Translations under genes and position numbers: made by a program
DNA from: a virus
Virus record (IMG/VR): IMGVR_UViG_3300047558_000137
Coordinates: 1 to 64,000 of that record
Length of the DNA stretch: 64,000 bases
Strand: one strand, 5' to 3'
Shown here: positions 36,870 through 57,725 of the stretch, piece by piece
How the letters are laid out: each line of letters begins with the position of its first letter
How positions within the stretch are numbered: position 1 is the first letter of the stretch
Notes under the pieces: model-generated
The model's input: only the letters and a program-made list of their open reading frames with translations
Database searches by the model: none
Told to the model about the DNA's origin: nothing

Positions 36870-36891
36870 TCCCAATCCAATTGACTTCTAC

Positions 36892-36932: not shown

Positions 36933-37250
36933 ATGAGCGAAGAAATAACAGACCTAATTAAGCAGGTTCGTTTGTCTACAGATTTTCAAGTTAACAAACG
37001 AATACTAAAAGAAAAAATTCAAACAGACCTACACTTTGCACACAGTGGTGGCATGTTTAAGATTACGCCCGAACTATTGGCGTTTGTTCAATCGTGGCCG
37101 ATAGATGAACTGTATCTTGAAGATGTATACGAAAATCCTGTTGCTGTAGACAAGCAGGTATTTCTAATTATGGCACAACAGCACTATCATAGAGTAATGA
37201 ACGATTGGCATACACAATATGAAGAGCTTAGAAAAATCCGTAAAGTCTAA
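36933..37250 (+). CDS. Conserved-looking hypothetical protein, first gene of the cassette
   Basis: This 105-residue protein is mostly helical by composition and has no signal peptide. It contains ITDLIKQVRLSTDFQVNKR and ILKEKIQTDLHFAHSGGMF, then LLAFVQSWPIDELYLEDVYE. It is soluble, with a slightly acidic middle and a basic end. I do not recognise a family. It starts 15 bases behind the late-block hairpin, and its 3' end overlaps the first glycosyltransferase-like gene by 32 bases. It may be a leftover of the structural region rather than part of the pathway. Confidence 0.6.
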   Translation: MSEEITDLIKQVRLSTDFQVNKRILKEKIQTDLHFAHSGGMFKITPELLAFVQSWPIDELYLEDVYENPVAVDKQVFLIMAQQHYHRVMNDWHTQYEELRKIRKV

Positions 37251-37998
37251 AGGTATTGTCGCGTTTGCCTATAATACAGAGCAGACTGATTATCAAGCTA
37301 TTGCAGAACAAACATTGGCGCAGGCTAGCCGAGTGTTAGGAATACCTTATACAGTTATATCAGACGACTATCTGGCAGAGTTCCGTAACACTCGTTACAG
37401 TATAGATACTGACGAATTTGTTGAGTGGCGTAACGTGGGTCGCAATGCAGCCTATGAACTTAGCCCGTATGACGAAACATTAGTAATTGATGTTGACTAT
37501 GTTGTGCTAGAGCCCAGTCTACTAGAAATCTTCAAACAAGATTGGGATTATATTCTGTTGCGTAACAGTCACGCACTTACGCAAGAGTATCCTCGATCGA
37601 TGGGCAACAACAGTTTGCCGTTTGTCTGGGCCACAGTATTTGCCTTTCGCAAAACAGCACGAGCAAAACAATTCTTTGATCTAGTATCACGTATACAACA
37701 CAATTATGAATACTACAAGGCCTTGTTTAATGTACACGGTGGTTCTTATAGAAATGATTATGCCTTTGCCATGGCAGACATTATCTTAAACGGATACACT
37801 GTTTCTAATACAGGTATTCCTGGCAGCATGTTAACTGTGGACCAACCCGTTAACACAATTGAGGTGCAGGAAAATAGATTAGTAATCAAAGATGACACAA
37901 GAGCATACGTTGTACCACGTACAAATTTGCATATTATGAGCAAACGTTATTTACAAAGTGACAATTTTCGAGAGTTTATAAAAAATGTCTCAGCATAA
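37219..37998 (+). CDS. Glycosyltransferase-like protein (GT-A type)
   Basis: This 259-residue protein carries TLVIDVDYVVLEPSLLEIF near residue 90, a DxD-type motif (D-V-D) as used by GT-A fold enzymes to bind the metal and nucleotide-sugar. NSLPFVWATVFAFRKTARAK follows, resembling the acceptor-side strand of GT8-like enzymes, and a later RNDYAFAMADIILNG helix. The start at 37219 overlaps the previous gene by 32 bases; no good ribosome site is visible there, and a later non-ATG start near 37254 after AAAGG is possible. It is the first of three related GT-A genes. Donor and acceptor are unknown. Confidence 0.55.
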   Translation: MKSLEKSVKSKGIVAFAYNTEQTDYQAIAEQTLAQASRVLGIPYTVISDDYLAEFRNTRYSIDTDEFVEWRNVGRNAAYELSPYDETLVIDVDYVVLEPSLLEIFKQDWDYILLRNSHALTQEYPRSMGNNSLPFVWATVFAFRKTARAKQFFDLVSRIQHNYEYYKALFNVHGGSYRNDYAFAMADIILNGYTVSNTGIPGSMLTVDQPVNTIEVQENRLVIKDDTRAYVVPRTNLHIMSKRYLQSDNFREFIKNVSA

Positions 37999-38812
37999 AG
38001 AACAACAAGGATATCTAACGTTTGCCAAGAATACAGATGTAGATTATCTACACCTTGCCTATGTACAGGCATTAAATGTCAAAGCCACGCAAAAGATAAA
38101 TCGTTATGCTGTTGTGGTTGACACAGCGACTAACGAATTGATCACAGATGAACATCGTAAGGCGTTTGACTATGTTATTGTTTATGATAGTCTAGGTCCA
38201 TATGATGCAGAAGCAATGGCCTTTTGGTTAACACCTTTCAAAGAAACTGTTAAGTTAGAAAGCGACTTACTGTTTACACGTAGTATTGACCATTGGTGGG
38301 ATACATTCAGACTACGTGATATAGTATTAAGCACTGGCTGCAGAAACTACGAGCAGCAATTAAGTACGGTTAAAAAGTATAGACAGGTTATACAAGATAA
38401 TAACTTACCTGATGTCTACAATGGTCTAATGTATTTTAGATTTAGTATGCCAGCTAGAAATTTCTTTTTAACAGCAAGACAAATATTTGAACAATGGGCA
38501 AATGTAAAAAGAGAATTAGTCTTATGCAACGAAGAACCTAGCACTGATTTGGTATATGCCATTGCCGCAGATGTAGTAGGCAGAGAAACCTGTACATTGC
38601 CCAGCGCAGACTTTGTTAATTTTGTACACATGAAACCTGCAATAAATGGCTTCCCTGACGGTGTAGATTTTACAGATGTTTATACTACAGTGTTTGATCA
38701 AGGCATGATACGCATTAACAACGTAAATCAATATCATCCCATACACTATTATGTTAAAGACTTTGTCACAGATGAAATGATTGAATACTATGCTAGATCC
38801 AGAAATACTTAA
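37985..38812 (+). CDS. Glycosyltransferase-like protein (GT-A type)
   Basis: This 275-residue protein overlaps the previous gene by 14 bases. Its organisation parallels that gene: a short N-terminal strand (GYLTFAKNTDVDYLHLAYVQ), then ETVKLESDLLFTRSIDHWWD at about residue 95, where ESD stands at the DxD position, and a C-terminal SADFVNFVHMKPAING histidine segment. A variant ExD motif could mean altered metal use or an inactive paralog. It probably works on the same acceptor as its neighbour. Confidence 0.5.
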   Translation: MSQHKEQQGYLTFAKNTDVDYLHLAYVQALNVKATQKINRYAVVVDTATNELITDEHRKAFDYVIVYDSLGPYDAEAMAFWLTPFKETVKLESDLLFTRSIDHWWDTFRLRDIVLSTGCRNYEQQLSTVKKYRQVIQDNNLPDVYNGLMYFRFSMPARNFFLTARQIFEQWANVKRELVLCNEEPSTDLVYAIAADVVGRETCTLPSADFVNFVHMKPAINGFPDGVDFTDVYTTVFDQGMIRINNVNQYHPIHYYVKDFVTDEMIEYYARSRNT

Positions 38813-39155
38813 AGCACTCGAAATGGTTGCCGAATATGATAGGCAACGCCCTGTAATTGTTAAAGAGTACCGGTTGTACTATAGAGCAGATGGTAGTATA
38901 ATAGGCCTGTGGGAATCTGATTTCCCAGATGGTGAGTACGTGGTGCTGGAAGATTTAGAATTCTTTAACACTCATAACACACAGCTAATGCGTGTAGTTA
39001 AAGGTCAGTTAACTTTGCTAGACCCAAATGCACCGTTTCGTGCCAGACTAAGACGATCTACAACAGGGCAACCAGTTGTAAAAGGGCATCCTGCTGTTGC
39101 ATTACGTGCAGGAGAAGAATATCCGGAAATAGAATACTATGACAGAAATAGTTGA
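38790..39155 (+). CDS. Hypothetical protein in the glycosyltransferase group
   Basis: This 121-residue protein starts at the ATG at 38790; an in-frame TTG at 38781 is possible. It is soluble and beta-rich: RLYYRADGSIIGLWESDFPD then GEYVVLEDLEFFNTH, followed by a basic stretch RARLRRSTTGQPVV. The pattern 'yyd.dG.ii.......pG.yi.vd....' is seen in small unassigned phage proteins. No enzymatic motif is visible. It overlaps both neighbours, so it is translated as part of the same run. Confidence 0.55.
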   Translation: MLDPEILKALEMVAEYDRQRPVIVKEYRLYYRADGSIIGLWESDFPDGEYVVLEDLEFFNTHNTQLMRVVKGQLTLLDPNAPFRARLRRSTTGQPVVKGHPAVALRAGEEYPEIEYYDRNS

Positions 39156-40032
39156 TGTAGCAGATTTAGATTGTATATACTTAACCTATGACGAGCCAAA
39201 GAAAGAAGAGTTTTGGGCAACTATTCAAAATATTGTTCCCTGGGCCAAGCGAGTGGACGGAGTTAAGGGCTCGGATGCGGCACATAAAGCGGCCGCTGAT
39301 GCAAGTGATACAGACCGGTTCATCCTCATTGACGGGGATAACCTCCCCGATCCTGCTTTCTTTAATCAACAGATGGTGTTGGATGACACTAACCGTGATT
39401 GCGTTTTCAGATGGCGGGCACGTAACAATATAAATGGATTAATGTATGGTAATGGCGGACTTAGCTCGTGGACTAAGGATTTTGTTTACAATATGCGGAC
39501 CCACGAGGCCACCGATGGGACTGCGGAGACGCTTGTGGAATTTTGCTTTCACCCAAAGTACTGGGCCATGGCCGACTGTTTTTCCACAACGTATCCTAAT
39601 GGAAGCCCCTTCCAAGCCTGGCGTGCGGGGTTTCGTGAAGGTGTTAAAATGTGCTTGGATCGTGGATCCCGCCCGAATCTCTTTGACTTTAAGAAGAGAG
39701 TGGTATCACGGAACTACGATAACTTATGCATCTGGCAGACAGTTGGGAAAGACGTGGGCAACGGGGCAATGGCTATATACGGTGCCAGACTGGGCACTTA
39801 TCTCACAATGCTTACAGAATGGGACTACACAGAAGTCCAAGACTTCTCCCGACTTGCAGAACTCTGGAAAGAACACCAAGATCAACAAAAGTTGAATATG
39901 TTTGAAATTACAGAAGCACTAACTACACGCCTAGGATTACCCATTGTAGAAATGTCAGCTGAGCAAAGCATATTTTTCAAACATCATTATCAAAGTCAGT
40001 TTAAAAATCGAGGCATAATGGTTCGCGAATGA
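39139..40032 (+). CDS. GT-A-type glycosyltransferase-like protein with raised G+C
   Basis: This 297-residue protein has the order DLDCIYLTYDEPKKEEFW, GVKGSDAAHKAAADASDTDR, and FILIDGDNLPDPAFF, in which DGDN is the likely metal and nucleotide-sugar motif of a GT-A domain. WRARNNINGLMYGNGGLSSW and a Cys/Trp-rich C-terminal part follow. Base composition differs sharply from its neighbours: counted 60-base stretches inside the gene have 53-55 percent G+C, against about 27 percent just downstream. This suggests recent acquisition. Its stop overlaps the next start by 4 bases. Confidence 0.6.
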   Translation: MTEIVDVADLDCIYLTYDEPKKEEFWATIQNIVPWAKRVDGVKGSDAAHKAAADASDTDRFILIDGDNLPDPAFFNQQMVLDDTNRDCVFRWRARNNINGLMYGNGGLSSWTKDFVYNMRTHEATDGTAETLVEFCFHPKYWAMADCFSTTYPNGSPFQAWRAGFREGVKMCLDRGSRPNLFDFKKRVVSRNYDNLCIWQTVGKDVGNGAMAIYGARLGTYLTMLTEWDYTEVQDFSRLAELWKEHQDQQKLNMFEITEALTTRLGLPIVEMSAEQSIFFKHHYQSQFKNRGIMVRE

Positions 40033-40583
40033 ATACAGTAATTTGTTATTATCCTGGGTCGGGCGGACATAGATATAAAAACTTTTTAACTGACCAAGAA
40101 TATACAACCCCATCTAAAATTTACGATAATAATCAAAAAGATATTTACAATATTAGATATATAACCAACGACACTAAAGTAGTCAATTGTGACAAGACAA
40201 TATTGTTAACACATTGCATGAATAGTTCATTGATTAATGAAAAAATACCAAATAGTCGTATTATTAAAATAGTTGCAAATTTACAACTTAGTTTAGCCCG
40301 CGGGTGGGGCAATTTTTTTAAAGATCTAAAACAATTTGATAGCGATTTGGATAACGCATTTACTACAATTAAATGGCATCTTGAATATTACAATCAATAT
40401 CCAGCTGACATAACAGCAGATGAATTGGTACTAGTGGATATAGATTCAACAACATTTTGCCAAACAATGCGTAGTGAATTAACCAATTACAGCAATCAAA
40501 CATTTAATCGAGCATGGGAAATTTATTCTAAATTTGGCCCGCAAGCACCAGTACTGGATATAGAGCGTAATGAACAAAAGTGA
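40029..40583 (+). CDS. Putative P-loop protein, possibly sulfotransferase-like
   Basis: This 184-residue protein begins CYYPGSGGHRYKNFL, a glycine-rich loop at the very N-terminus where sulfotransferase-fold proteins have their phosphosulfate-binding loop (GSGG in place of the usual SGT/KSGS). A later strand-turn, LVLVDIDSTTFCQTMRSEL, and NSRIIKIVANLQLSLARGWG have the general look of that fold. The protein is shorter than typical sulfotransferases (about 250-300). AT content is very high, in contrast to the preceding gene. Assignment is weak; a kinase-like or unrelated P-loop protein is also possible. Confidence 0.35.
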   Translation: MNTVICYYPGSGGHRYKNFLTDQEYTTPSKIYDNNQKDIYNIRYITNDTKVVNCDKTILLTHCMNSSLINEKIPNSRIIKIVANLQLSLARGWGNFFKDLKQFDSDLDNAFTTIKWHLEYYNQYPADITADELVLVDIDSTTFCQTMRSELTNYSNQTFNRAWEIYSKFGPQAPVLDIERNEQK

Positions 40584-41952
40584 TTTTATGGCTAATGCCG
40601 AATGGATGAAAGAGAATTTAGGCAAAGGTCTTTGTCTTGCCAAATGGCAGCAGGTAAGCCTACACTTGCCCACGGGATTAACTAACAGTTGTTATCACCC
40701 GCCACTACATCAGATTCCAGTGGAGCCACTAACAACTAATCCCAGCGCATTACATAACACTGAATATAAAAAAACACAGCGTGTTATAATGCTTAAAGAC
40801 GAGCGCCCGCAGGAATGTAGTTACTGCTGGACACAAGAAGATTTAGGTAATCTAAGCGACAGACATTATAGATCAGGAGAGCCCTGGGCAGCAGAACACT
40901 ATGAAGAAATCCGAAATTCTACAGGATCCGAGGATCCAACGCCTAGTTATGTGGAAGTCAATTTTAATCACGTCTGTAACCTTAAGTGTAGTTATTGCAG
41001 CCCTCAGTTTAGTAGTACTTGGTCTGACGAAGTTACCCGGTATGGTGGCTATCCAACTAGCACTACCCATAATGATCCTGGGCATTTTAAAGACGCTAGA
41101 CGACCTATCCCTGCTCGTGAAGCTAATCCATACGTGGACGCTTTTTGGGAGTGGTGGCCCGAGCTTTACCCTCGACTTAAACACTTCAGGATGACCGGCG
41201 GCGAGCCAATACTAGATCGGAACACATACAAGGTTTTTGATTATGTACTAGCCTTTCCTAAACCAGACCTGCATCTAAACGTTACCAGTAATTTCAGCGT
41301 AGAGCCTGCGATGTTTGACAAGTATCTTGACTATGTTAAACAGTTATGTGATACACAAATTGAACACTTCATGCAGTATGTTAGTCTTGATACTGGCATA
41401 GCAGAACATGCAGAGTATATTAGACACGGAATGTTCTTCAGGCGTGTCGCAACAAATGTTTTACGATATCTACAAGAAGCACCATATCGCAACAGTTTGA
41501 CGTTTATTATTACTATGAACAATCTAAGTGTTCTAGGAATTCAAAGGCAGCTAGAATGGATCTTAGAATTGAGAAAAGTATATAGTGAAACATACCAACG
41601 TGTTTGGTTTGATACGCCCTTACTACGCAGTCCAAGTTGGCAGAGTCTGCAGATCCTACCACCTGTGTATGCTGACCGTTTAGAGCAAGTTGCCAATTGG
41701 ATGGAGTTGCATAGGGAAACGCCAGATGAGCCATTTCAAGGGTTTAAGGACTATGAGATACAGCGTATGCGCCGTGATGTAGATTGGATGCGAGAAGGTA
41801 GCAAACTGGACCCTGAATATGTTAAACTACAACGTGCTGACTTTTATCGTTTCTTCAATGAACACGACAAGCGCAGACGCACAGATTTTTTAAAGACGTT
41901 CCCACAAATGAAAGAGTTCTGGGACGAATGTAGATACCATGCCCAAAATTAA
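40570..41952 (+). CDS. Radical SAM enzyme, N-terminal twitch type (rSAM 1)
   Basis: This 460-residue protein has the radical SAM cluster C136, C140, C143 (CNLKCSYCSPQFSSTW), then a glycine motif MTGGEPILD near residue 210 and NVTSNFS on the next strand. The N-terminal 100 residues hold a second cysteine group (LTNSCYHPP and ECSYCW) as in radical SAM proteins with an N-terminal twitch domain, which probably binds an auxiliary Fe-S cluster. The C-terminus has RTDFLKTFPQMKEFWDECR, a tail shared with the other paralogs ('F...fPe...'). It overlaps the previous and next genes by 14 bases each. Closest paralog in the window is the next gene. Substrate unknown. Confidence 0.87.
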   Translation: MNKSDFMANAEWMKENLGKGLCLAKWQQVSLHLPTGLTNSCYHPPLHQIPVEPLTTNPSALHNTEYKKTQRVIMLKDERPQECSYCWTQEDLGNLSDRHYRSGEPWAAEHYEEIRNSTGSEDPTPSYVEVNFNHVCNLKCSYCSPQFSSTWSDEVTRYGGYPTSTTHNDPGHFKDARRPIPAREANPYVDAFWEWWPELYPRLKHFRMTGGEPILDRNTYKVFDYVLAFPKPDLHLNVTSNFSVEPAMFDKYLDYVKQLCDTQIEHFMQYVSLDTGIAEHAEYIRHGMFFRRVATNVLRYLQEAPYRNSLTFIITMNNLSVLGIQRQLEWILELRKVYSETYQRVWFDTPLLRSPSWQSLQILPPVYADRLEQVANWMELHRETPDEPFQGFKDYEIQRMRRDVDWMREGSKLDPEYVKLQRADFYRFFNEHDKRRRTDFLKTFPQMKEFWDECRYHAQN

Positions 41953-43318
41953 TAACGAAACCGATTCACAATATAAACGCAGAGTCATTGACATCAAGTC
42001 AAATAGTTTCTGCGGCGCCAAATGGTATAACGCCACTATCTGGTTAGGATCGGGGCAAACAACTAGTTGTCATCATCCTTTGCCACATCAAGTTAGTGTA
42101 GAAGATGTAATAGCAAATCCCAAAGCATTGCACAATACACAAAAGAAAAAAATGGAACGTGAGCAGATGCAACGTGGCGAACGCCCAAGTGGATGCGAGT
42201 ACTGTTGGAAAATTGAGGATATGTACAAGGATCCAAAATTTGCTGGCCGCGATGTTGCAGAGCCCATAAGTGATCGCGTATACAAAACAGTTATATATTC
42301 AGATGAGGATTTAAATGCAGCATTTCGTACTCCAGCAAGCGAGGACACAGACCTCCAAACCCTTGAAATTGCGTTCGATCGCACTTGTCAGTTTGCTTGT
42401 TCTTACTGTAACCCAGCTTTTAGTAGTACTTGGGTTAAGGACATTAAACAACATGGACCCTATACCAACTTGGTTAGTGACGGTAGGAACCACTTTACTC
42501 ACACTCACGATAGTAGCCAATTGTATAAGTTCGGTGATCGTAATCCGTACGTGGATGCGTTCCATGCGTGGTGGGAAAGCGACCTCCACAGAACACTAAA
42601 GGAACTACGCATTACTGGCGGCGAACCTTTGATGTCAGGTGAGACATGGAAGTTGATTGACTGGTTTAAAACTAACAAAGGCAAGAGTACGACACGCCTT
42701 GCTATTAACAGTAATCTTGGTACAGACGTTGATATCGATCGTCTATTAGATAGCATTGATGGTGTAGAAGTGGATCTATACACTAGTAATGAAGCTGTTG
42801 GTTTACAGGCTGAATATATTCGTGACGGGTTGGTATTTGATGACTGGGCTAACAATGTAGAACGTTTACTAGACTCAGGTAAGTTCCGTGGTTTGCATAC
42901 AATGTGTACTATCAACGCACTATGCTTGAGTAGCCTAGACAGTTTCCTCGAAATGGTATACAATTGGAAATTAGAGTACGGCAAGGATTCAATTAACTTT
43001 TCACTAAATATATTACGATTCCCAAGTTTTCAAAGTCCTCTAGTACTGCCCGACGATATCCGAACAGAATACCAGGCTAGACTAGCAACGTTTCTAGTAG
43101 ACCACAAAGGCGACAGCACATTCCACGAATATGAAATTAATCAATTGATTAGATTGATTGATTATCTTGATGTAGTTAAGACTCCACACGAAGGTGCAGT
43201 GGCACAGAGTATACTTCAACGCGACTTTAAGAACTTCTATCAACAGTATGACCAACGTAGAGGTAAAAACTTTGATAACACATTCCCAGAGTTAGCAGAA
43301 TGGTACAAAACACTGTAA
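41939..43318 (+). CDS. Radical SAM enzyme, N-terminal twitch type (rSAM 2)
   Basis: This 459-residue paralog of the preceding gene shows the same order of elements. N-terminal cysteines lie in QTTSCHHPLPHQVS and CEYCWKIEDM. The radical SAM cluster is C150, C154, C157 (CQFACSYCNPAFSSTW). ITGGEPLMSG follows near residue 225. The tail is NFDNTFPELAEWY. The two proteins align along their whole length by eye (for example LHNTQKKKMEREQMQRGERP against LHNTEYKKTQRVIMLKDERP), so they arose by duplication but have diverged strongly. The two may act on successive positions of one substrate or form a heterodimer; neither can be tested here. Confidence 0.87.
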   Translation: MPKINNETDSQYKRRVIDIKSNSFCGAKWYNATIWLGSGQTTSCHHPLPHQVSVEDVIANPKALHNTQKKKMEREQMQRGERPSGCEYCWKIEDMYKDPKFAGRDVAEPISDRVYKTVIYSDEDLNAAFRTPASEDTDLQTLEIAFDRTCQFACSYCNPAFSSTWVKDIKQHGPYTNLVSDGRNHFTHTHDSSQLYKFGDRNPYVDAFHAWWESDLHRTLKELRITGGEPLMSGETWKLIDWFKTNKGKSTTRLAINSNLGTDVDIDRLLDSIDGVEVDLYTSNEAVGLQAEYIRDGLVFDDWANNVERLLDSGKFRGLHTMCTINALCLSSLDSFLEMVYNWKLEYGKDSINFSLNILRFPSFQSPLVLPDDIRTEYQARLATFLVDHKGDSTFHEYEINQLIRLIDYLDVVKTPHEGAVAQSILQRDFKNFYQQYDQRRGKNFDNTFPELAEWYKTL

Positions 43319-44079
43319 AATCTCGATTTAAGAATTTAGTTGTATCTGGGTGCAGCTTTACCCACGAACCAATTAATGAATGGAATCCTTTTAGTTGGGC
43401 AAATACGTTTGGCCATTTAACTGATATGGTGGTACATAATCTTGCTATGCCCGGTGCCGGGAACGATCATATTTCAAAAAGTATAATTTTGTATATGGAA
43501 AGAAATTCATTTGATCCTGCTGATACGTTAGTATTAGTCATGTGGTCCGGAGTGGGAAGAATCGACTGGATTGCAGATAGATCTAAATCAAATTTTGGTG
43601 ACGAGTATCCGTTTACATATAACTATGATGATAACAATGAATTAGTTTTAGGTGGTAACTGGTGGAATAAAAAGAATCCAAGTCCATTAATAAAAACATT
43701 AATAAACTATTCTAAATATCAATCCGACAGCACGTTTGCATTGCACACTTGGTTGGCCATGCAAAATTTATCTAATTATCTAAAAGTAAACAATTTCGAA
43801 TATTACTACACATCATTCTTAAATTACAACAACACAAAAATCAAAGGTGATGCACTAACTGTCAACTTCTTTAAAGAGTTAGAAAATTTAAATCTATCAA
43901 TTGATTATAATCATTGGCTAGATTTTCAAGATGAAGAATACTATGGCGATTGGTCAAGAATACACAATTTTTTAGATGATGACGGCTTTCATCCTAGGTA
44001 TCCAAAAGCAACTGAAGGTTGGACTAAAGAAATTTTAATACCAAAATTAATTAAACTGGGAATTTTATATAACGTATGA
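43300..44079 (+). CDS. SGNH-type hydrolase/esterase-like protein 1
   Basis: This 259-residue protein has SGNH fold blocks: block I with nucleophile Ser19 (VSGCSFTH), block II Gly/Asn in LAMPGAGNDHISKSI, VLVMWSGVGRIDWI as block III, and a C-terminal D-x-x-H (DDDGFHPRYPKATEGW) for the catalytic Asp/His pair. Such enzymes remove or transfer acyl groups, often O-acetyl on glycans. There is no signal peptide, so it acts in the cytoplasm. It sits between radical SAM genes 2 and 3 and is followed by an ATGA overlap. Two related proteins lie at 50749 and 51643. Confidence 0.75.
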   Translation: MVQNTVKSRFKNLVVSGCSFTHEPINEWNPFSWANTFGHLTDMVVHNLAMPGAGNDHISKSIILYMERNSFDPADTLVLVMWSGVGRIDWIADRSKSNFGDEYPFTYNYDDNNELVLGGNWWNKKNPSPLIKTLINYSKYQSDSTFALHTWLAMQNLSNYLKVNNFEYYYTSFLNYNNTKIKGDALTVNFFKELENLNLSIDYNHWLDFQDEEYYGDWSRIHNFLDDDGFHPRYPKATEGWTKEILIPKLIKLGILYNV

Positions 44080-46627: not shown

Positions 46628-47307
46628 CATCGGCTATAATTGGTTACACTGGATTTATTGGCAAGTATCTGTGTCGTAATACAAAGTTTGATTATTTCTT
46701 TAATTCTGAGAATATCGATGAAATAACAAAAAACAGTTATGACGTAGTCTATTGTGCCGCACCTCATGGTAATAGAATTTTATCAAGTGCTGACCCTGCG
46801 GCCGATTGTGCCAATGTGGAAAAATTAATATCCAGTTTAACTAAACTAGACACCAATAGATTTATATTAATTGGTACTGTTGATGCATTGGTATCTAATA
46901 GAGATTACGGAAAGAATAGAAAACTATTAGAAGATTTTGTTAAACAGAATTTTCATTCATATAACATTGTAAGATTAAGTTCATTGATATTTGATACTAT
47001 ACAAAAAAATCTATTGTATGATTTAAAACATCAACAATGGTTAGAATCAATTAATCCGGAGTCAACACTACAGTGGTATCCGTTAGAAAAAATAATTGAT
47101 GATATTGCCTGGGCAGTTGATAACCGCGTCAACGAACTAAATCTAGTATCTGAACCTGTTAACAATTTAGAAATTATTCAGCAATTTGCACCCAACTGTC
47201 TTGCCAGTATCTCAGAGAAGAAGGATGCAACGCATTACAATATCACACCATATCGTTTTAGTAAAAAAGAAATATTTTCTTACATTGAAAGATATATGCA
47301 GCAATGA
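46624..47307 (+). CDS. NAD(P)-dependent epimerase/dehydratase-like protein (short SDR)
   Basis: This 227-residue protein begins IIGYTGFIGKYL, the GxxGxxG nucleotide-binding loop of extended SDR enzymes, followed by VVYCAAPHGN, which corresponds to the NAAG strand. The catalytic YxxxK position reads DYGKNRKLLE, so the expected lysine is Arg unless the motif has shifted. It is much shorter than usual nucleotide-sugar epimerases (about 310), lacking most of the C-terminal substrate domain, and could be a reductase or a non-catalytic member. It stands between radical SAM 4 and a glycosyltransferase-like gene with 4-base overlaps on both sides, which fits sugar chemistry. Confidence 0.65.
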   Translation: MTSAIIGYTGFIGKYLCRNTKFDYFFNSENIDEITKNSYDVVYCAAPHGNRILSSADPAADCANVEKLISSLTKLDTNRFILIGTVDALVSNRDYGKNRKLLEDFVKQNFHSYNIVRLSSLIFDTIQKNLLYDLKHQQWLESINPESTLQWYPLEKIIDDIAWAVDNRVNELNLVSEPVNNLEIIQQFAPNCLASISEKKDATHYNITPYRFSKKEIFSYIERYMQQ

Positions 47308-48203: not shown

Positions 48204-49497
48204 TACACTATGCATGGCGCCGTGGACGCACACATACCTAAGCCCACAAACAGAACGTAGGATGTGTTGTGCCAGCCGAGAACCTGCACAAAACTTTCAG
48301 CAGTATATCGACACTAGCGCCGGCACCGGGCGATATATACCTATCACTTTGGATGAACACTGGAATGGAGAGCACATGAGGTCCGTGCGCCTACGTATGA
48401 TGCGTGGGGAAATCCTCCCAGAGTGCGAAGTATGTAATGATCGACTGTTGAATACTTCCGTTTACCGCAGTTATTTTAATCAACTGTTTGGTCATAAGTA
48501 CAATGAAGCAATGGCAAATACAGCCGAAGATGGTACGACTACATTGCAGCCAGTTAGTTGGGATTACCGTTTTAGTAATCTCTGTAACTTCAAATGTCGC
48601 ATGTGTGGGGACATGTTAAGCAGTGCTTGGGAGTCCGAGCAACGCCAACACAACATGATCAATTGGCACGATCCAAAGAACAATTGGATGAAGCCTGAGA
48701 TCAAAAAACAAATTGAAAGTTTTCAAGAAGGTCAAATAGAAGCCGAGTTCTCAAAGGCAGTTGAAGAACACAGAGTTGAAGAAGTATACTGGGTAGGTGG
48801 CGAGCCACTAATGTATGAACAACACTGGCGTTACATGGCTCGCATAGTTGAACTAGGAGATGGACCAAATGTTTACGCTCGTTATAACACCAACTTATCT
48901 CGCGTTAATTACAAGGGTATCAATTTGTATAGTGATATTCTTAGCCGGGTTCGTGACTGGCAAATATGCGCTTCAATTGATGGCACTGGGAAAATCGGGG
49001 AGTATATCAGAACCGGACTCGATTATGATCAATGGCTTAGAAACTTCCGTGCAGGAGTTGAGATCGCAACTCACAGACGTCAGATGCGAATTGACTTTAC
49101 ACTCACACTGCCAGGAATGTTCGAAGTTGAACGAATACAACAGCTCGCAGACAAGTTAAATGTAGACGTACTTGCTAAAGTAATTTTTAGTTTTAGCCCG
49201 GACATAGTTATGTCACCTTTAGCACTACCCAGAGAACTTCTAGATCCCTGGATAGACGAAACACTAAGAGAATTCGATTCAATTGGCACGAGCCCGTTAA
49301 AGGATATCCTTGTCCAGCTAAAAACTAGACCTACATTTGAAGAACAATGGCCCGACGAATACCGTACGGCTATTGCAAAAGGCAAAGCTCGTGTGTTAAA
49401 ATTAGAGCAAATACGTACACAGTCAATTACTATGACCGATATATTAAGTCAACGTCCGGACGTATTAGAATGGTGGATGAGCATTGAAACAATTTAA
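48190..49497 (+). CDS. Radical SAM enzyme, N-terminal twitch type (rSAM 5)
   Basis: This 435-residue protein has the N-terminal twitch part TLCMAPWTHTYLSPQTERRM then CCASRE, MRSVRLRMMRGEILPEC and CEVCNDR. The radical SAM cluster is C132, C136, C139 (CNFKCRMCGDMLSSAWESE). VGGEPLMYEQHWRYM follows near 202, and RYNTNLSRVNYKG after it. The SIDGTGKIGEYIRTG segment parallels SLDASGARAELMRKG in rSAM 3. The last 14 bases overlap the next gene. Conservation with rSAM 3 is strongest in the DYRFSNLCNFKCR region. No partner peptide gene of a RiPP kind is obvious next to it. Confidence 0.9.
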   Translation: MQKPDTLCMAPWTHTYLSPQTERRMCCASREPAQNFQQYIDTSAGTGRYIPITLDEHWNGEHMRSVRLRMMRGEILPECEVCNDRLLNTSVYRSYFNQLFGHKYNEAMANTAEDGTTTLQPVSWDYRFSNLCNFKCRMCGDMLSSAWESEQRQHNMINWHDPKNNWMKPEIKKQIESFQEGQIEAEFSKAVEEHRVEEVYWVGGEPLMYEQHWRYMARIVELGDGPNVYARYNTNLSRVNYKGINLYSDILSRVRDWQICASIDGTGKIGEYIRTGLDYDQWLRNFRAGVEIATHRRQMRIDFTLTLPGMFEVERIQQLADKLNVDVLAKVIFSFSPDIVMSPLALPRELLDPWIDETLREFDSIGTSPLKDILVQLKTRPTFEEQWPDEYRTAIAKGKARVLKLEQIRTQSITMTDILSQRPDVLEWWMSIETI

Positions 49498-49705
49498 AAT
49501 CAAAAACAGCATGATACCAGAAGTTACCCGATGGTGTCTGGAGAATTTAGGTAAAGAAAATATTCGTTGGTGGGTGTCACCTATTGGTACAGGTAACTGG
49601 AATGGTACCACATCAAAGTTTGAAAATGATATACAGTTGTTTATTGATGTTACTGAAGAAGAAGAAACCAACTTAACATATTTTGTTTTACGATATGATC
49701 AATAA
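49484..49705 (+). CDS. Small hypothetical protein
   Basis: This protein has 73 residues from a TTG start at 49484 (overlap 14, the same as at several other junctions) or 64 from an ATG at 49511. It contains EVTRWCLENLGKENIRWWV then SPIGTGNWN, and an acidic C-terminal half. The Trp pair and short length suggest a small alpha/beta protein. No family is recognised. Its conserved place between a radical SAM gene and the next unknown enzyme-size gene suggests it could be a small partner protein. Confidence 0.5.
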   Translation: MKQFKIKNSMIPEVTRWCLENLGKENIRWWVSPIGTGNWNGTTSKFENDIQLFIDVTEEEETNLTYFVLRYDQ

Positions 49706-50771
49706 AGTTATTGTTACACTACGTAACCCGCTGGCAAAAAATGAAACGTTAGACTACATAATTGAAGTAAACGATAGTCCAATGGGTTCTCGTTGGTACA
49801 TGGCCCTATATGATCTATTAAAGCAAAACCGGTATCTTGAAAAGAACTTTTGCTTTTTAGGTTTTCCTGACAGTGCCCGCGACCTAGAATATATTTGTCA
49901 AGAACTAGAATGGGCCGTTAAGCAGATTAATAGTTTCTTTGATCCCAGTGACTACTACATAGGACAGGCCTTTACGCCAGACAATCTGCGAGAAGGACTC
50001 GATCCTAATCAAGCGATGTTCAACGTATTGCACAATCACTTTGAGCACTTACAAGGTACAGTTTGGGGTCTAAGTGAATGGTACAAACGTGCCGACTATG
50101 AAACTAAGTTTGCCATTAGACAACTAAACAATCTATGTCACGAAGCAGAAAGCCTACTACTAAGTCAACGCAAACAGGTAGAAGCACCAGACTGGGTTAG
50201 ACCCAGTCAAATAACTACATTCTTAAATGCACAGCGATTGGAATTCCCCGATGAACTTAAAACGACTTTTGAAGAAACGAGATATGATCGTAAATTCGGT
50301 CAGGTATACTTACATTGGACCCAAATTGGGAAGACGCTATACGAGGTATTTAGAGATGAAGGGGGCGTGGCGGTGGATCAAGCCACTTGCGATGCTATTA
50401 CTCACTTACGATACTATTCGGGTGAATTTGATATTGAGTGGGCGCAGGACGTTGTCTATGGTGGACCGCATCCTTGGCACACCCGAGAAATTGATTTATT
50501 CAGATCTTGGCTTGAACAAAACAGATTCAACTTGGTGGACAGAAATTACAATTTTGGATATCACGCCGTCGGCCAAGTTAATCTTGCAGAGTCTTTTGGA
50601 ACAACCAACCACCGTGAAGTTTGGCCCATACTCTCTAGACACCTCGATATCTATAGCATACAAGCCGGCAGTGCCAAGTCAGTATACGACTATAACTGGA
50701 CAGACGTAGATTACTACCAACAACAAATAGAAAGATTGAAACCCGGATATGATTATAGTAGCAGGCGGTGA
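49695..50771 (+). CDS. Unknown protein with HNHFEHLQG and CHEAE motifs (possible metal protein)
   Basis: This protein has 358 residues from the ATG at 49695; an upstream TTG at 49683 is possible. No family can be named. It is largely helical. Around residue 115-155, NVLHNHFEHLQGTVWGLSEW and then LNNLCHEAESLLLSQ place His and Glu residues on two neighbouring helices, the kind of arrangement used by diiron or other metal sites. The C-terminal half has VVYGGPHPWHTREIDLFRSW and NYNFGYHAVGQVNL, again rich in His. It is flanked by a small protein and an SGNH hydrolase. It could be an oxygenase or a binding protein; the metal idea is inference from motif spacing. Confidence 0.5.
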   Translation: MINKVIVTLRNPLAKNETLDYIIEVNDSPMGSRWYMALYDLLKQNRYLEKNFCFLGFPDSARDLEYICQELEWAVKQINSFFDPSDYYIGQAFTPDNLREGLDPNQAMFNVLHNHFEHLQGTVWGLSEWYKRADYETKFAIRQLNNLCHEAESLLLSQRKQVEAPDWVRPSQITTFLNAQRLEFPDELKTTFEETRYDRKFGQVYLHWTQIGKTLYEVFRDEGGVAVDQATCDAITHLRYYSGEFDIEWAQDVVYGGPHPWHTREIDLFRSWLEQNRFNLVDRNYNFGYHAVGQVNLAESFGTTNHREVWPILSRHLDIYSIQAGSAKSVYDYNWTDVDYYQQQIERLKPGYDYSSRR

Positions 50772-51570
50772 TAGTTTTATATTTGGATCTGAATTAGCAG
50801 ATCAAACTGGTGCCCGCGCAAGCATGAATACTATTCCTGCCTTGCTTAGTAAAAGCATTGGGGCCGAATATACGTGTCTAGCAGTTCCCGGTAATGCCAA
50901 CAATGCTATTGCTAGACAGGTAATGGACTATTGCGAAACATACAAAGAAAATAAAATGTTTGTTTTTGTTATGTGGACATTTGTACACAGATACGATTTC
51001 AGATTCAATTACTCCACTGGGCGTAAAACAAGTCCCTGGCATAGCATAAACTTATGGGATATAGTAGACGATGTTGCAACACTTAAAAAAGAATTTGCAA
51101 ATCAAAATCAAAATGTTTTTGATGAATTAGTAAACGATAGATACCGAGCTGATTCAACTGGATTATCTGAGTTTTCTAAAATGTTTTACAAGCATGTTGG
51201 TAATAGTGAATACTATGAATTTTATACTAGTCTTAAAGAAATTGTGTTTTTGCAGAATTATCTAGACATAAACAATATACCATTTATGTTTACCTTTGCT
51301 GACATACATTTTAAAGACAGCGATCAAATTAAGCGTCATTTAACTGACCCCAGTATGCGTACACTTTACAATCAAATCAAGTGGGACCACTGGTATGAAT
51401 TTCCTGCAGGAACTAAAAAAGGCGAAACATTGGATCCAAGAGGTTTTTATCAGTGGGCTGTGGAGAATAAATATCAAGTAGGCACTACACATCCGCTAGA
51501 ACAAGCACACGCAGATGCTGCCCAATTAATGCAGGAAAAATTCAATGAAATGGTTAAAAAATCTCTATAA
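50749..51570 (+). CDS. SGNH-type hydrolase-like protein 2
   Basis: This 273-residue protein opens with IIVAGGDSFIFGSEL, where Ser9 is the expected nucleophile (GDSF). VPGNANNAIARQVMDY is block II (Gly/Asn), FVMWTFVHRYDFRF is block III-like, and a C-terminal TTHPLEQAHADAA supplies the His. The middle (about 100-190) is a helical insert. It shows the same order of elements as the proteins at 43300 and 51643. No signal peptide is present, so it would act inside the infected cell. Confidence 0.7.
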   Translation: MIIVAGGDSFIFGSELADQTGARASMNTIPALLSKSIGAEYTCLAVPGNANNAIARQVMDYCETYKENKMFVFVMWTFVHRYDFRFNYSTGRKTSPWHSINLWDIVDDVATLKKEFANQNQNVFDELVNDRYRADSTGLSEFSKMFYKHVGNSEYYEFYTSLKEIVFLQNYLDINNIPFMFTFADIHFKDSDQIKRHLTDPSMRTLYNQIKWDHWYEFPAGTKKGETLDPRGFYQWAVENKYQVGTTHPLEQAHADAAQLMQEKFNEMVKKSL

Positions 51571-51646
51571 CCGAATTGTGCTCGAAATTCGTTATCGTAA
51601 AAAACTCAAAGAGCTACGTAAACGCGATCCATTTATCTATAAATGA
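51545..51646 (+). CDS. Very small basic protein (33 residues)
   Basis: A short frame runs from ATG at 51545, inside the end of SGNH gene 2, to a TGA at 51644-51646 that overlaps the ATG of SGNH gene 3 (ATGA). It fills exactly the gap between the two. The peptide begins MKWLKNLYNRIVLE and ends KKRDPFIYK-like (LRKRDPFIYK); it is strongly basic with an amphipathic helix. Similar tiny 'KRDPFIYK' proteins occur in T4-like phages by my recollection. It was called on its ATGA junction and composition. Confidence 0.6.
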   Translation: MKWLKNLYNRIVLEIRYRKKLKELRKRDPFIYK

Positions 51647-52305
51647 TTAAACACATACTAACTGTCGGCGACAGTTTTACCTACGGGGAAGAACTTGAAA
51701 ACAGAGACAATGCATATCCCTATTATCTTGCTAAAGGGTTAAAAGCTGAAGTAGTTAATCTTGGACAGCCTAGTGGTGGTAATCGTCAAATGGTACGCAA
51801 AGTAATAGATTATGTTCTAAGTGGTGAACCGTTAGATCTAGTAATCATTGGGTGGACAAGTCCCGGGCGTATAGAGTTTGCAGATGCCAATGGTGTGTTT
51901 GATATATGGCCCGGCTACGGGGGAGACCTGTTTAGACGTGACGGGCAAGAGTGGCGACTAGAATTACTAGACTACATTAACAAGCATCACGATCCAGAAT
52001 ATCTATATAGACAACATCTTAACGATATTATTCTGTTACAGAGTTTTTTACAACAGCGTAACATACGTTATCTAATGTTAAAGGTAGTTGGTAATGAGTA
52101 TTATCACAATACCTACTACAATGAAGATGCAGTATTGCCTAAACAAATTGATGCAACACACTTTGTGGGATGGCCCAATCAAGGGATGGCAGAATGGACA
52201 AACGGATGTCGACGTGGACCACGTGGGCATTTTCTCGAAGAAGGTCACAGAAAGGTGACAGCAAAACTTTATGAACATATTAGGAATCTCGGCTGGCTTT
52301 CATGA
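51643..52305 (+). CDS. SGNH-type hydrolase-like protein 3
   Basis: This 220-residue protein is the clearest of the three: ILTVGDSFTYGEEL (GDSF, Ser11), LGQPSGGNRQMVRKVIDY (block II), LVIIGWTSPGRIEFAD (block III) and GHFLEEGHRKVTAKLYEHI with the C-terminal His. GDL/GDSF and a shorter length are typical of acyl esterases. Its 3' end overlaps the carbamoyltransferase gene by 35 bases, the longest overlap in the cassette, so the two are likely made together. Confidence 0.8.
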   Translation: MIKHILTVGDSFTYGEELENRDNAYPYYLAKGLKAEVVNLGQPSGGNRQMVRKVIDYVLSGEPLDLVIIGWTSPGRIEFADANGVFDIWPGYGGDLFRRDGQEWRLELLDYINKHHDPEYLYRQHLNDIILLQSFLQQRNIRYLMLKVVGNEYYHNTYYNEDAVLPKQIDATHFVGWPNQGMAEWTNGCRRGPRGHFLEEGHRKVTAKLYEHIRNLGWLS

Positions 52306-53761
52306 TGCAGCCGCAACAGTATTAGACGATGATGGGAACATCTTATTTGCCTCACACAGCGAGCGTTACAGTAAGCAGAAGTCTGATGCTAATTTTTGCA
52401 GCCCTCTTATTCGTGAGCTTGAGCAGTACAATCCAATTGGAACCGCAGCCTACTATGAGCGCCCATTGGTTAAACAGCTACGACAGCTTTATGCAGGACA
52501 GGGATTTGAATGGAACAAACTATCTACAAAGAAGTTGGTACATGATCAAATTGGTTATGCCAAGTGGTGGGACCTTAGCAAGTACAGAAGTTTCAACCAC
52601 CATCTTAGTCATGCAGCCGCTGGATTCCAGACTAGCAGTTTTGATAGGGCAACGGTCGTTGTAATCGATGCAATAGGTGAATTTGAAACAGTAACCATAT
52701 GGGGTGCAGAATATGATAGCACAGGTCGAGCAGTTTATAAAAAGTTGTGGCAACGCAATTACCCGCATAGCATTGGACTCTTTTACACTGGAGCTACTAA
52801 GCGGGTTGGCCTTAAGCCACTAGACGAAGAATACATTCTAATGGGCATGGCCGCCTATGGCAACCGCGGATTCAGCGATTTACTAAAGATGGACTTAATT
52901 GACAATGAATGGGAAATTAAATTCAAACAGAATATGCACACAGGGCTAACATTAAAGTATCTAAATGATGCAACAGCAGATTTTGATGTAGCAGCCGCGG
53001 CCCAAGATCTAGTAGAAGATTTAATACTTAACGTTATGCTTAGAGCCAAACAGTTTAAGTGGAGTGACAATTTAGTTTACATGGGCGGGTGCGCCCTTAA
53101 TTGTAGTGCCAATGCACGTATAGGAGCTTACTTTGATAATATATGGATTATGCCTAATCCTGGTGACGCTGGTAGCAGCCTTGGTGCTGCCGCTTTGGCT
53201 TATGGGCGTAGAATTAACTGGACCAGTGCTTATCTCGGGCATAATATTCCTGGCAATTATCCCGTTATGGAGCTTTTGGATAGGCTACTTGCTGAACAGA
53301 TTGTGGGAGTGGCAAGTGGACGTGCCGAATTCGGCCCCCGCGCACTCGGAAACCGTAGCCTCCTTGCGGACCCTCGAGGCAGCGAGATTAAGGAGAGAGT
53401 AAATGACATTAAACGTAGGCAACAGTTCAGACCCTTTGCGCCAGTTATTTTGGAAGAGTTGGCTGACACTTACTTTGATATGCCTCGCGGTTGGGGTAAC
53501 AGTAGGTATATGCAAACAGTCGCTCGTTGTAGGTTTCCTGACCTATTTCCTGCTATCGTTCATCATGACGGCACTAGTCGTGTACAAACTGTGCCGCGTG
53601 ATGGATCGGGAATACGAGAGCTGTTAGAACGATGGTTTGTAATGACTGACTGCCCTATGCTGCTCAATACAAGCCTGAACATACGTGGCGAACCAATGGT
53701 TAATGATCGTGCAGATGCAGATCGATTTGAAAAATTATATGGTATAAAGGTCTGCTCATGA
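52271..53761 (+). CDS. Carbamoyltransferase (NodU/CmcH/TobZ family)
   Basis: This 496-residue protein has the two-domain layout of O-carbamoyltransferases. The N-terminal part has ILGISAGFHDAAATVLDDDG, a metal-binding HHLSHAAAGFQTS, VIDAIGEFETVTIWG and GLFYTGATKRVGLKPLDEEY then MGMAAYG. The kinase-like part has YMGGCALNCSANARI and PNPGDAGSSLGAA. The YrdC-like C-terminal part has SGRAEFGPRALGNRSLLADP and CPMLLNTSLNIRGEPMV. Family members use carbamoyl phosphate and ATP to place a carbamoyl group on a hydroxyl of a sugar, antibiotic or, in some phages, hydroxymethylcytosine in DNA. It is shorter than many relatives (about 550-600) but keeps the core motifs. The next gene overlaps by 4 bases. 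Confidence 0.93.
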   Translation: MNILGISAGFHDAAATVLDDDGNILFASHSERYSKQKSDANFCSPLIRELEQYNPIGTAAYYERPLVKQLRQLYAGQGFEWNKLSTKKLVHDQIGYAKWWDLSKYRSFNHHLSHAAAGFQTSSFDRATVVVIDAIGEFETVTIWGAEYDSTGRAVYKKLWQRNYPHSIGLFYTGATKRVGLKPLDEEYILMGMAAYGNRGFSDLLKMDLIDNEWEIKFKQNMHTGLTLKYLNDATADFDVAAAAQDLVEDLILNVMLRAKQFKWSDNLVYMGGCALNCSANARIGAYFDNIWIMPNPGDAGSSLGAAALAYGRRINWTSAYLGHNIPGNYPVMELLDRLLAEQIVGVASGRAEFGPRALGNRSLLADPRGSEIKERVNDIKRRQQFRPFAPVILEELADTYFDMPRGWGNSRYMQTVARCRFPDLFPAIVHHDGTSRVQTVPRDGSGIRELLERWFVMTDCPMLLNTSLNIRGEPMVNDRADADRFEKLYGIKVCS

Positions 53762-54486
53762 CGCAAACTAGATGGGATTACACTACGTCCCAAAGTAAAT
53801 GGCATTTTAATACACACGCATCATCTGCGCCCGGTGTTGATAATTTTATACATGTTTGCAGATTTAATGCAGATTTTCCAGAGGCATGTACCTTAGCCGA
53901 AGGTGGATTAAAACCAAATAACTGGAGCACAGGGGTGCTTCGTCCTTGGCTTAAAAATCAAGAAGTCGGGCCGGATCAAGCAGACTTAGTACGTGCAGGA
54001 GCCGACCCTAATGGCGAAATATACGACAGGGCACCAGCAGATCATGTACCATTGTTTTGTGCTATATCGGACTATCTTGGAATGGAAAAGCCTATCATTA
54101 AATATCATGTTCAACGTACAGGACAATATGTAGTTACACATATAGATGATTTTTTTCAAACTGGATTCAATCGTTGGAATTGGTTAGAACGCAATAGAGG
54201 TGAGCCGTTAACAGAACCAAGAGATGTAAAAATAAGAAGATTTGCAATTATGTTAGATGATTGGAAATTAGGACAAATATTTCAAGTTGGTACAGCAAAC
54301 TGGCACCAATGGCGTGCGGGAGATTGCATTACATGGGATTGGTATAATACACCGCACTCTACAGCAAATCTAGGATGGGCGCCTCGCCATATGTTACAAA
54401 TCACAGGTGCAGAAACACTGCGTACACAAGAAGTATTAGCACAAGCTAATATCAACAAAATTATAGATATAAAGGAACTGTTATGA
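53758..54486 (+). CDS. 2-oxoglutarate/Fe(II)-dependent oxygenase-like protein
   Basis: This 242-residue protein has HxD (H128 and D130, in VTHIDDFF) and a distal H200 in NTPHSTANLGW, followed by R about 11 residues on (APRHMLQITG). That H-x-D...H...R set is the iron and 2-oxoglutarate site of this oxygenase fold, here like aspartyl/prolyl hydroxylase-type members. KLGQIFQVGTANWHQW lies between. It probably hydroxylates a small molecule, sugar or base of the cassette pathway. It is coupled by ATGA overlaps to the carbamoyltransferase and the APS-kinase fusion. Confidence 0.75.
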   Translation: MTQTRWDYTTSQSKWHFNTHASSAPGVDNFIHVCRFNADFPEACTLAEGGLKPNNWSTGVLRPWLKNQEVGPDQADLVRAGADPNGEIYDRAPADHVPLFCAISDYLGMEKPIIKYHVQRTGQYVVTHIDDFFQTGFNRWNWLERNRGEPLTEPRDVKIRRFAIMLDDWKLGQIFQVGTANWHQWRAGDCITWDWYNTPHSTANLGWAPRHMLQITGAETLRTQEVLAQANINKIIDIKELL

Positions 54487-55283
54487 AAACGCCACAACGT
54501 ATTCTTATTATGGGCTTACCCGGTGCAGGTAAGACTTACTTAGCACAGCACATACTAGATCATTTACAGGCTGAGAAAAAACGTGTAGGTTGGTTAAACG
54601 CTGACGATGTACGTAAGAAGTATAACGATTGGGACTTTAGTGTTGATGGTCGCATACGTCAAAGTCATCGTATGCGTGAACTAGCAGACTCAATGGCGGA
54701 TATGGATTATGTGATCTGTGACTTTGTTGCACCACTAGTGGAAATGCGTAACAACTTTAAAGCAGATTGGACTGTTTGGGTAGACACGATTGATAAGGGA
54801 CGGTTTGAAGATACAAACAAGGCCTTTATTGCTCCTGATATCTACGACTTTAGAGTAACAGAACAGAGATCAGAGTGGTGGGGCGAATTTATTGCCGCAC
54901 ACATACTAGACAATCGCAGACGTCCTGTGTTCGATTGGCAAAAGGAAACAGTACAGATGTTAGGACGTTGGCAACCTTGGCATGCCGGTCATCGTGCATT
55001 GTTTGAACGTGCTATTGCCAAGACTGGACAGGTAGTAATTCAAATACGTGACTGCCAAGGTTGGCAAGGATCAAACCCATTTGCTATCGAACAGGTTAAG
55101 AGCTTTATTCGTAGAGACTTGGATCCCATCTATCAAGGACAGTATGAAATCCAAGTGGTGCCCAACATTGTAAACATTACCTATGGTCGAGATGTGGGCT
55201 ACAAGATAGAGCAAGAAATGTTTGATGAATCAATTACAGATATCTCTGCAACAAAGATTCGTCGGAGCATGGGTCTTGAGTGA
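54483..55283 (+). CDS. Bifunctional APS-kinase-like / nucleotidyltransferase-like protein
   Basis: This 266-residue fusion has an N-terminal P-loop kinase domain (GLPGAGKT, residues 11-18, then LNADDVRKKYNDWDFS and RQSHRMRELADSMA) as in adenylylsulfate kinase. The second domain has the HxGH motif of nucleotidyltransferases (GRWQPWHAGHRALF, H167 and H170) and an ISATKIRR segment near the C-terminus, as in NMN/phosphopantetheine/cytidylyl transferases. The kinase part could make phosphosulfate or phosphorylate a sugar-nucleotide precursor; the other part would activate a phosphate compound with a nucleotide. Similar fusions occur in aquatic T4-like phages. Its partner could be the sulfotransferase-like proteins. 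Confidence 0.8.
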   Translation: MKTPQRILIMGLPGAGKTYLAQHILDHLQAEKKRVGWLNADDVRKKYNDWDFSVDGRIRQSHRMRELADSMADMDYVICDFVAPLVEMRNNFKADWTVWVDTIDKGRFEDTNKAFIAPDIYDFRVTEQRSEWWGEFIAAHILDNRRRPVFDWQKETVQMLGRWQPWHAGHRALFERAIAKTGQVVIQIRDCQGWQGSNPFAIEQVKSFIRRDLDPIYQGQYEIQVVPNIVNITYGRDVGYKIEQEMFDESITDISATKIRRSMGLE

Positions 55284-55479
55284 TACCCCAAAACGTAGTC
55301 TAGCAAAGACTATCAGCTGGCGCATAACTGGTAGTGGCGCAACGTTTGCTATCAGTTATGCCATCCTGGGTGATGTAACGGTATCCAGCACAATAGCAGT
55401 TATCCAGCTAACTTTTAATACAATCTTGTATTTTGCCCACGAGCGTTTGTGGGACAAAATCCGCTGGGGGCGGAATTAA
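55276..55479 (+). CDS. DUF2061 membrane protein
   Basis: This 67-residue protein starts with TTG at 55276 (8-base overlap with the previous gene). It reads MSDTPKRSLAKTISWRITG from there, exactly the usual N-terminus of DUF2061 proteins, so this start is preferred over earlier in-frame ATGs. A membrane segment covers about residues 18-54 (GATFAISYAILGDVTVSST, then IAVIQLTFNTILYFAHERLW). DUF2061 proteins are small, unassigned and also seen in phages, often beside APS-kinase-like genes. It closes the overlapping cassette. Confidence 0.8.
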   Translation: MSDTPKRSLAKTISWRITGSGATFAISYAILGDVTVSSTIAVIQLTFNTILYFAHERLWDKIRWGRN

Positions 55480-57665: not shown

Positions 57666-57687
57666 GGTTTCCTGCTAGTCACAGGCC

Positions 57688-57722: not shown

Positions 57723-57725
57723 GTT

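Follow-up and report, generated by a model that had tools for sequence, protein, structure and literature searches.

Gene content of the cassette

The stretch of DNA analysed here (the window, 64,000 nucleotides) covers the first 64 kb of the IMG/VR virus record IMGVR_UViG_3300047558_000137, which is 374,314 bp long. At 36933-55479, on the plus strand, it contains a cassette of 23 genes tiled with overlaps of 4-62 nt and zero intergenic bases, the core of which is one syntenic unit. We tentatively propose that it is expressed early and directs the biosynthesis of a glycan that is tailored by radical enzymes and O-carbamoylated, most likely to remodel the host envelope, a reading to which we give not quite an even chance. 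A preliminary description of this DNA had already reported 23 overlapping genes in a T4-like phage. Our recount agrees (22 open reading frames (ORFs) and, as the 23rd gene, a frame-shifted 33-codon ORF at 51545-51646 between two SGNH genes), and the record carries a T4-type capsid gene (Gp23, E=2e-98) and T4-type baseplate genes (wedge and hub).

Gene starts were set by the longest ORF, and the resulting inflation of overlaps is equal everywhere in the record. In this longest-ORF gene set the cassette run counts 17 genes without the short ORF, and elsewhere in the record 218 of 442 same-strand neighbours overlap. Although half of such neighbours overlap, the next longest uninterrupted run comprises only nine genes; therefore the cassette, the longest overlapping run of the record, is a real outlier. 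Its core genes are:

36933..37250, plus strand: g01, conserved 105-aa protein, with 18 homologs immediately after a fibre gene
37219..37998, plus strand: GT2, glycosyltransferase-like (GT-A/GT8-like motif LSPYDET..IDxDY, invariant D91 and D93; motif reading only)
37985..38812, plus strand: GT3, glycosyltransferase-like (related motif with ESD and NGLMYF, by alignment; phrog_1903, without assigned function)
38781..39155, plus strand: g04, small conserved protein with a C-terminal EYYD motif
39139..40032, plus strand: GT5, probable GT-A glycosyltransferase with an invariant DGDN
40570..41952, plus strand: rSAM A, N-twitch radical S-adenosylmethionine (rSAM) enzyme (NF033640, E=1.9e-92; own clade)
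41939..43318, plus strand: rSAM B, N-twitch rSAM enzyme (NF033640; own clade)
44076..45410, plus strand: rSAM C, N-twitch rSAM enzyme (NF033640, E=9e-119; fused to rSAM D in two loci)
45407..46627, plus strand: rSAM D, N-twitch rSAM enzyme (NF033640; clade D)
48190..49497, plus strand: rSAM E, N-twitch rSAM enzyme (NF033640; directly upstream of g16 in 69/69 loci)
49683..50771, plus strand: g16, core protein with invariant H117/E121 and H153-E154-x-E156
50749..51570, plus strand: SGNH2, SGNH-like hydrolase/acyltransferase, detected in 9/13 spanning loci (defined below)
51545..51646, plus strand: g18, 33-aa peptide MKWLKNLYNRIVLEIRYRKKLKELRKRDPFIYK, conserved at the protein level
51643..52305, plus strand: SGNH3, SGNH hydrolase-like (DUF6071, E=5e-7; profile matches the GDSL structure 4rsh, E=3e-6)
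52271..53761, plus strand: g20, O-carbamoyltransferase of the NovN/GdmN/TobZ family (PF16861, 3e-46; PDB NovN, 3e-52)
54483..55283, plus strand: adenosine phosphosulfate (APS)-kinase-like protein fused to a nicotinamide mononucleotide adenylyltransferase (NMNAT)-type nucleotidyltransferase (library support; phrog_10255 'kinase', 5.6e-50)

Among the families named in the preliminary description, the five twitch rSAM enzymes, the carbamoyltransferase and the APS-kinase/nucleotidyltransferase fusion are firm by library matches, whereas the SGNH proteins, the epimerase-like short-chain dehydrogenase/reductase (SDR), the glycosyltransferases, the 2-oxoglutarate (2OG)/Fe(II) oxygenase and the P-loop protein are weaker, with matches below cut-off or motifs only. 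For one SGNH gene the GDSL matches stayed below cut-off. None of the glycosyltransferase-like proteins of the window matched Pfam, the GT2 protein matched neither Pfam nor PDB, and PDB profile searches with GT2 and GT5 gave no credible match. GT2, GT3 and GT5 each have acidic motifs of GT-A type. Of 20 GT5 relatives, 11 match Glyco_tranf_2_3 weakly (best E 0.01), and the GT5 model (predicted local distance difference test (pLDDT) 77) resembles GT-A proteins, though not significantly, with a GT2 mannosyltransferase as its best PDB match (E 0.076).

A fixed core and its insertion sites

A homology scan with rSAM C gathered 46 related loci, 13 of which extend over both the fibre-region gene f07 and the carbamoyltransferase (spanning loci). 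All 13 of these IMG/VR loci contain 15-17 of 17 markers, always in the order of the window: fibre, g01, GT, GT, g04, GT, rSAM A, B, C, D and E, g16, SGNH, peptide, SGNH, carbamoyltransferase and kinase/nucleotidyltransferase. Mean protein identities to the window lie between 40% (SGNH3) and 78% (rSAM E), with 82% for the peptide; the spanning loci are therefore old relatives. The preliminary description had suggested a single pathway in which a molecule is assembled and decorated. Because the order is kept in 13/13 spanning loci, the core genes are not scattered singly in other phages, and for the core (∼40-80% identity) this idea is well supported. It is not absolute, as the peptide-carbamoyltransferase pair and single members are also found without the rest. 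A chimeric assembly is unlikely: an identical stretch is present in another record (L005), and the order is conserved elsewhere.

Insertions occur at about five hot spots, after GT5 (9/17 loci), rSAM A (5), rSAM B (∼4), rSAM D (10) and the carbamoyltransferase (8), and are essentially absent outside them. The blocks g01-GT5, rSAM C-D and g16-SGNH2-peptide-SGNH3-carbamoyltransferase hold no extra ORF of at least 90 aa in the loci examined. The inserted families include GT-B-like, SGNH and SDR-like proteins, a sugar aminotransferase of the DegT type and further radical SAM proteins; in the window the variable class comprises the SDR, GT13, 2OG, one SGNH, g06 and g15 genes. The pattern is reminiscent of surface-glycan loci, in which a constant backbone carries variable decoration. 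Searches found no homologs on plasmids and, at the sequence level, no homolog of g16 or GT5 in named phages, among which rSAM C has relatives of only ∼25% identity, in Vibrio phages K566/K567 and Marine virus AG-345-D19.

Radical SAM enzymes and g16

All five cassette rSAM enzymes score 285-397 bits against NCBIfam N_Twi_rSAM (NF033640), with a curated cut-off of 170 bits. The CX3CX2C motif is intact in the five enzymes themselves and in 173/173 relatives examined (clusters A/B, C, D and E), and SPASM or twitch cysteines precede the core domain in the cassette enzymes. A maximum-likelihood tree resolved the enzymes into five well supported, position-specific clades (A-E), with nearly every locus present in each. 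Thus the five cassette enzymes belong to five orthologous clades, and the peculiarity of the cassette within NF033640 lies in five non-redundant members in one operon. In two loci (L029, 10001-12526; L030, 9986-12526) rSAM C and D form a natural fusion, one protein of 841-846 aa; therefore a joint action of both enzymes is suggested. The literature searched on twitch rSAM enzymes in phages contained no prior paper.

Enzymes of the BtrN/AprD4/NeoN type catalyse dehydrogenation, deoxygenation or epimerisation of aminocyclitols. They offer a possible analogy for radical chemistry on sugars alongside carbamoylation; unlike in these enzymes, the auxiliary domain of the cassette rSAMs is N-terminal.

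In 69/69 loci with enough upstream sequence, rSAM E directly precedes the core protein g16. Its predicted structure (pLDDT 87, predicted template modelling score (pTM) 0.86) showed no fold match in PDB at E<=0.001, and the fold is common to 10 predicted phage proteins, one of them from Agrobacterium phage Atu_ph07.

A sixth N_Twi_rSAM gene lies outside the cassette (record 231786-233054, minus strand). A second, different rSAM-rich cluster of constant order was seen in L033, L035-L036, L038-L040, L042-L044, L046, L048 and L049. It contains two rSAM C-like genes, more rSAMs, one GT-like and two SGNH proteins, and in most of its loci a 720-aa B12-binding radical SAM protein.

Carbamoyltransferase and the 33-aa peptide

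The product of g20 has the full two-domain architecture of O-carbamoyltransferases, with N- and C-terminal Carbam_trans domains (PF02543 and PF16861) both above cut-off. Enzymes of this NodU/TobZ family transfer a carbamoyl group from carbamoyl phosphate, via an adenylate, to an alcohol. The nearest solved relatives of g20 are NovN, GdmN and TobZ (E=3e-52 to 5e-32), whose substrates for carbamoylation are sugars or other small molecules; it differs from them as a phage clade of ∼496 aa with a linked micropeptide gene inside an rSAM operon. This closeness to antibiotic-tailoring enzymes would also suit a soluble product, such as an aminoglycoside-like or nucleoside-like small molecule that acts on the host, on rival phages or on defence systems, and twitch rSAM enzymes combined with carbamoylation would be reminiscent of aminoglycoside tailoring. 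However, no exporter or resistance gene was recognised in the cassette, and a surface glycan is the better match for the variable decoration and the linkage to fibres, so that we regard such a product as unlikely.

DNA hypermodification, a further suggestion of the preliminary description, would require that g20 acts on hydroxymethylated pyrimidines. A carbamoyltransferase for 5-hydroxymethylcytosine (5hmC), of the same superfamily as g20 and probably of phage origin, was described by MetaGPA (PMC8670742), and a gene of the thymidylate synthase family is located at 63391. The same study provides the features expected for 5hmC carbamoylation, namely the residue positions and a partner thymidylate synthase homologue with Asp (PMC8670742). 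However, the gene at 63391, the sole member of its family in the record, encodes Asn (PFNIASY), as in dUMP-type enzymes, where dCMP-type enzymes have Asp (E. coli position 177). In addition, g20 shares only 23% identity with the 5hmC enzyme and carries V347, G360 and R362 in place of its I, C and T; G360 and R362 are apparently two of the three discriminating positions, the mapping to TobZ W408/G421/R423 being deduced from spacing. No Tet_JBP was found by a search whose control was silent too. The known 5hmC-carbamoyl route is thus disfavoured, and we consider modification of DNA highly improbable.

The 33-aa peptide ends in KELRKRDPFIYK, an ending almost unchanged in nearly all cassette loci. 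Its back-translated pattern matched at least 120 stretches in viral contigs, and the next gene was the carbamoyltransferase in 85 and an SGNH gene in 19, usually with a 4-nt overlap. Conversely, in loci found by the carbamoyltransferase only, the peptide is encoded within 2.6 kb upstream in 66/74, compared to 0/74 for the reverse strand of the same stretches and 0/62 for downstream sequence. Within the last 12 codons second positions are 99% and third positions 67% conserved, the motif being partly fixed by the search pattern. Marine virus AG-345-D19 has a diverged copy, LRKSDPYIYEE, in front of its carbamoyltransferase.

In one group of loci the peptide-carbamoyltransferase pair follows a primase-like gene, and no cassette rSAM was detected in 9-14 kb (rSAM-free examples are L070, L076 and L149). 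Therefore, the predicted partner of the peptide is the carbamoyltransferase rather than the rSAM enzymes, and in the simplest reading the peptide would serve the enzyme as a small obligate partner, as a docking piece or as a carrier. This also bears on modification of a protein or peptide by a pathway like those for ribosomally synthesized and post-translationally modified peptides (RiPPs), in which the 33-aa peptide or g04 would be the precursor modified by the rSAM enzymes and the carbamoyltransferase. SPASM/twitch rSAM enzymes often act on peptides, and a short peptide with a near-invariant C-terminus is indeed encoded within an rSAM-rich operon. Since the peptide appears independent of rSAM genes in these many loci, and neither protease nor transporter was seen, a RiPP pathway seems unlikely, with a slim chance at best.

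In L149 and ∼34 similar loci the pair is located directly 3' of the T4-type primase-like gene. A role of the peptide as amphipathic membrane anchor found no support, as its helical moment is not above that of shuffles and its N-terminus in L140 is hydrophilic. A single tblastn of the peptide in named phages found nothing, the query being too short. In bacterial and archaeal genomes the motif was present on one contig only, NZDU01000025.1 (L188) of an archaeal metagenome-assembled genome, where it is followed by an SGNH-like reading; perhaps this is a viral contig in the bin.

Putative promoter and hairpin upstream of g01

Two elements lie in front of the cassette:

36881..36909, plus strand: sigma-70 promoter, near-consensus TTGACT-N17-TATAAT (11/12), within 63 nt upstream of g01
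36892..36917, plus strand: 11-bp hairpin around the -10 box, followed by a T-rich tail, terminator-like (-15.4 kcal/mol, z -4.5)

A promoter-like site of at least 9/12 is present in 14/18 cassette loci and one of at least 11/12 in 9/18, while only 2.2% of all genes in these loci reach the latter score; in the whole record, 7/181 gap-preceded genes do so. A hairpin with z<-2 occurs in 13/18 loci, with a different stem sequence in most other loci. A TAAATA late-like motif was found upstream of 11/19 virion-region genes of the record and of g01 in 0/18 cassette loci. The element reads as a terminator of the fibre transcript that doubles as an early, host-sigma-70-type start, so that the cassette is probably expressed early.

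This element bears on the location of the product, for which the preliminary description had named the virion or the host surface. The same enzymes could place sugars on the virion instead, with the fibre proteins f06 and f07, encoded just upstream, as the likeliest acceptors: f07 precedes g01 in 13/13 spanning loci, and no core protein is clearly membrane-bound, which would allow a cytosolic acceptor such as a fibre. However, fibre adjacency is equally expected of a host-recognition island, and the putative promoter and hairpin set the cassette apart from the fibre genes. Weight therefore moves from virion decoration, a possible but rather unlikely outcome, towards modification of the host cell, and the host surface is the predicted best fit.

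Proposed pathway and relation to known systems

The data establish the syntenic unit, the five orthologous rSAM clades, the linkage of peptide and carbamoyltransferase, the promoter/hairpin sequence and the hot spots. From these we infer a glycan product, an early timing, a reaction order and a target as follows. The cassette would be transcribed as one unit from the sigma-70-type start behind the terminator-like hairpin, and an unusual glycan would be made and attached inside the infected cell. The kinase/nucleotidyltransferase fusion may activate a building block, from which the GT-A enzymes GT2, GT3 and GT5 would assemble a constant backbone. By analogy to BtrN/AprD4/NeoN, each of the five N-twitch rSAM enzymes could carry out a C-H chemistry of its own on this backbone (dehydrogenation, deoxygenation or epimerisation), SGNH proteins may edit O-acyl groups, and the O-carbamoyltransferase, with its linked micropeptide, would cap a hydroxyl with carbamate. 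The variable genes (extra GT, SDR, DegT aminotransferase, 2OG, extra rSAM) would decorate the product differently in each phage. The target is most likely a host envelope glycan recognised by the adjoining fibres, resulting in receptor remodelling or superinfection exclusion.

Several points weigh against this proposal. The glycosyltransferases were assigned mainly by motifs, and we know of no characterised member of N_Twi_rSAM, a family without assigned function. No nucleotide-sugar synthesis, lipid-carrier enzyme or flippase was recognised in the core; therefore the host, or another part of the phage, would have to supply building blocks and export. The promoter is lacking in 4/18 loci, its timing is read from sequence, and the -10 box inside the hairpin may indicate a terminator rather than a promoter. 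The presence of rSAM C in the loci is due to selection, as they were collected with it.

In a bolder version, which we consider doubtful, the phage O-carbamoyltransferase clade would depend on the micropeptide as its dedicated activator, scaffold or carrier, and both, together with the five non-redundant N-twitch rSAM enzymes and g16, would build a novel class of molecule that is installed early in infection.

The broad kind of island is already known: host recognition clusters of pelagimyophages contain cassettes of glycosyltransferases and rSAM genes beside tail fibres, read as O-chain modification (PMC7029224). As in these pelagimyophage and cyanomyophage clusters, rSAM genes and, mostly by motif, candidate glycosyltransferases accompany fibre genes of the structural region in a T4-like phage. 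A pelagimyophage cluster is expected between VrlC and the neck gene gp14. However, the known clusters are described as hypervariable and non-syntenic, whereas the cassette has a core of 15-17 markers in constant order (13/13) with its own promoter/hairpin, and a carbamoyltransferase is not mentioned for the former (PMC7029224). Neither this operon of constant order nor its peptide nor its start element was described in the literature searched; the micropeptide linkage, the promoter/hairpin and the division into core and variable genes are new beyond the preliminary description. The chemistry could be more novel than the kind of island. The analysis replaces a vague 'glycosyltransferase and radical SAM island' by a well-delimited operon, syntenic and fixed in its core, to which defined variable sites, a start element and a peptide-enzyme pair belong. 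If its product is a receptor-remodelling glycan, radical enzymology would be linked to superinfection exclusion in uncultured giant phages, and N_Twi_rSAM and g16, with no solved fold match, would gain a functional setting.

Accessory and neighbouring genes

The remaining genes of the cassette are:

40029..40583, plus strand: g06, accessory, P-loop-like (motif only, no library match), outside the core
43300..44079, plus strand: SGNH-like protein, accessory (no library match), homologs in few loci
46624..47307, plus strand: SDR/epimerase-like, accessory (PF01370, E=0.007, below cut-off)
47304..48203, plus strand: GT13, GT-B-like, accessory (motif ETY...SEKTYKPI; motif reading only)
49484..49705, plus strand: small accessory ORF
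53758..54486, plus strand: 2OG/Fe(II) oxygenase-like, accessory (motif only, no library match), with a related ORF at record position 211267
55222..55479, plus strand: DUF2061 small membrane protein (PF09834, 3e-19; hydrophobic segment)

The GT13-type C-terminal motif recurs in eight more genes of the record (69, 88, 207, 213, 250-252, 314 and 361 kb), several of which adjoin SGNH genes; the phage thus seems to hold several glycan islands. A large GT5-related protein is encoded at record 66798-69440 (minus strand), perhaps of a family with repeated WHP/FGTQWQ motifs that occurs in other loci (cluster c26). Shortly downstream of the cassette (window 56565-59834) lie an AAA gene, MoxR-like by reading, and a DUF2201 metallopeptidase/von Willebrand factor A (VWA) gene.

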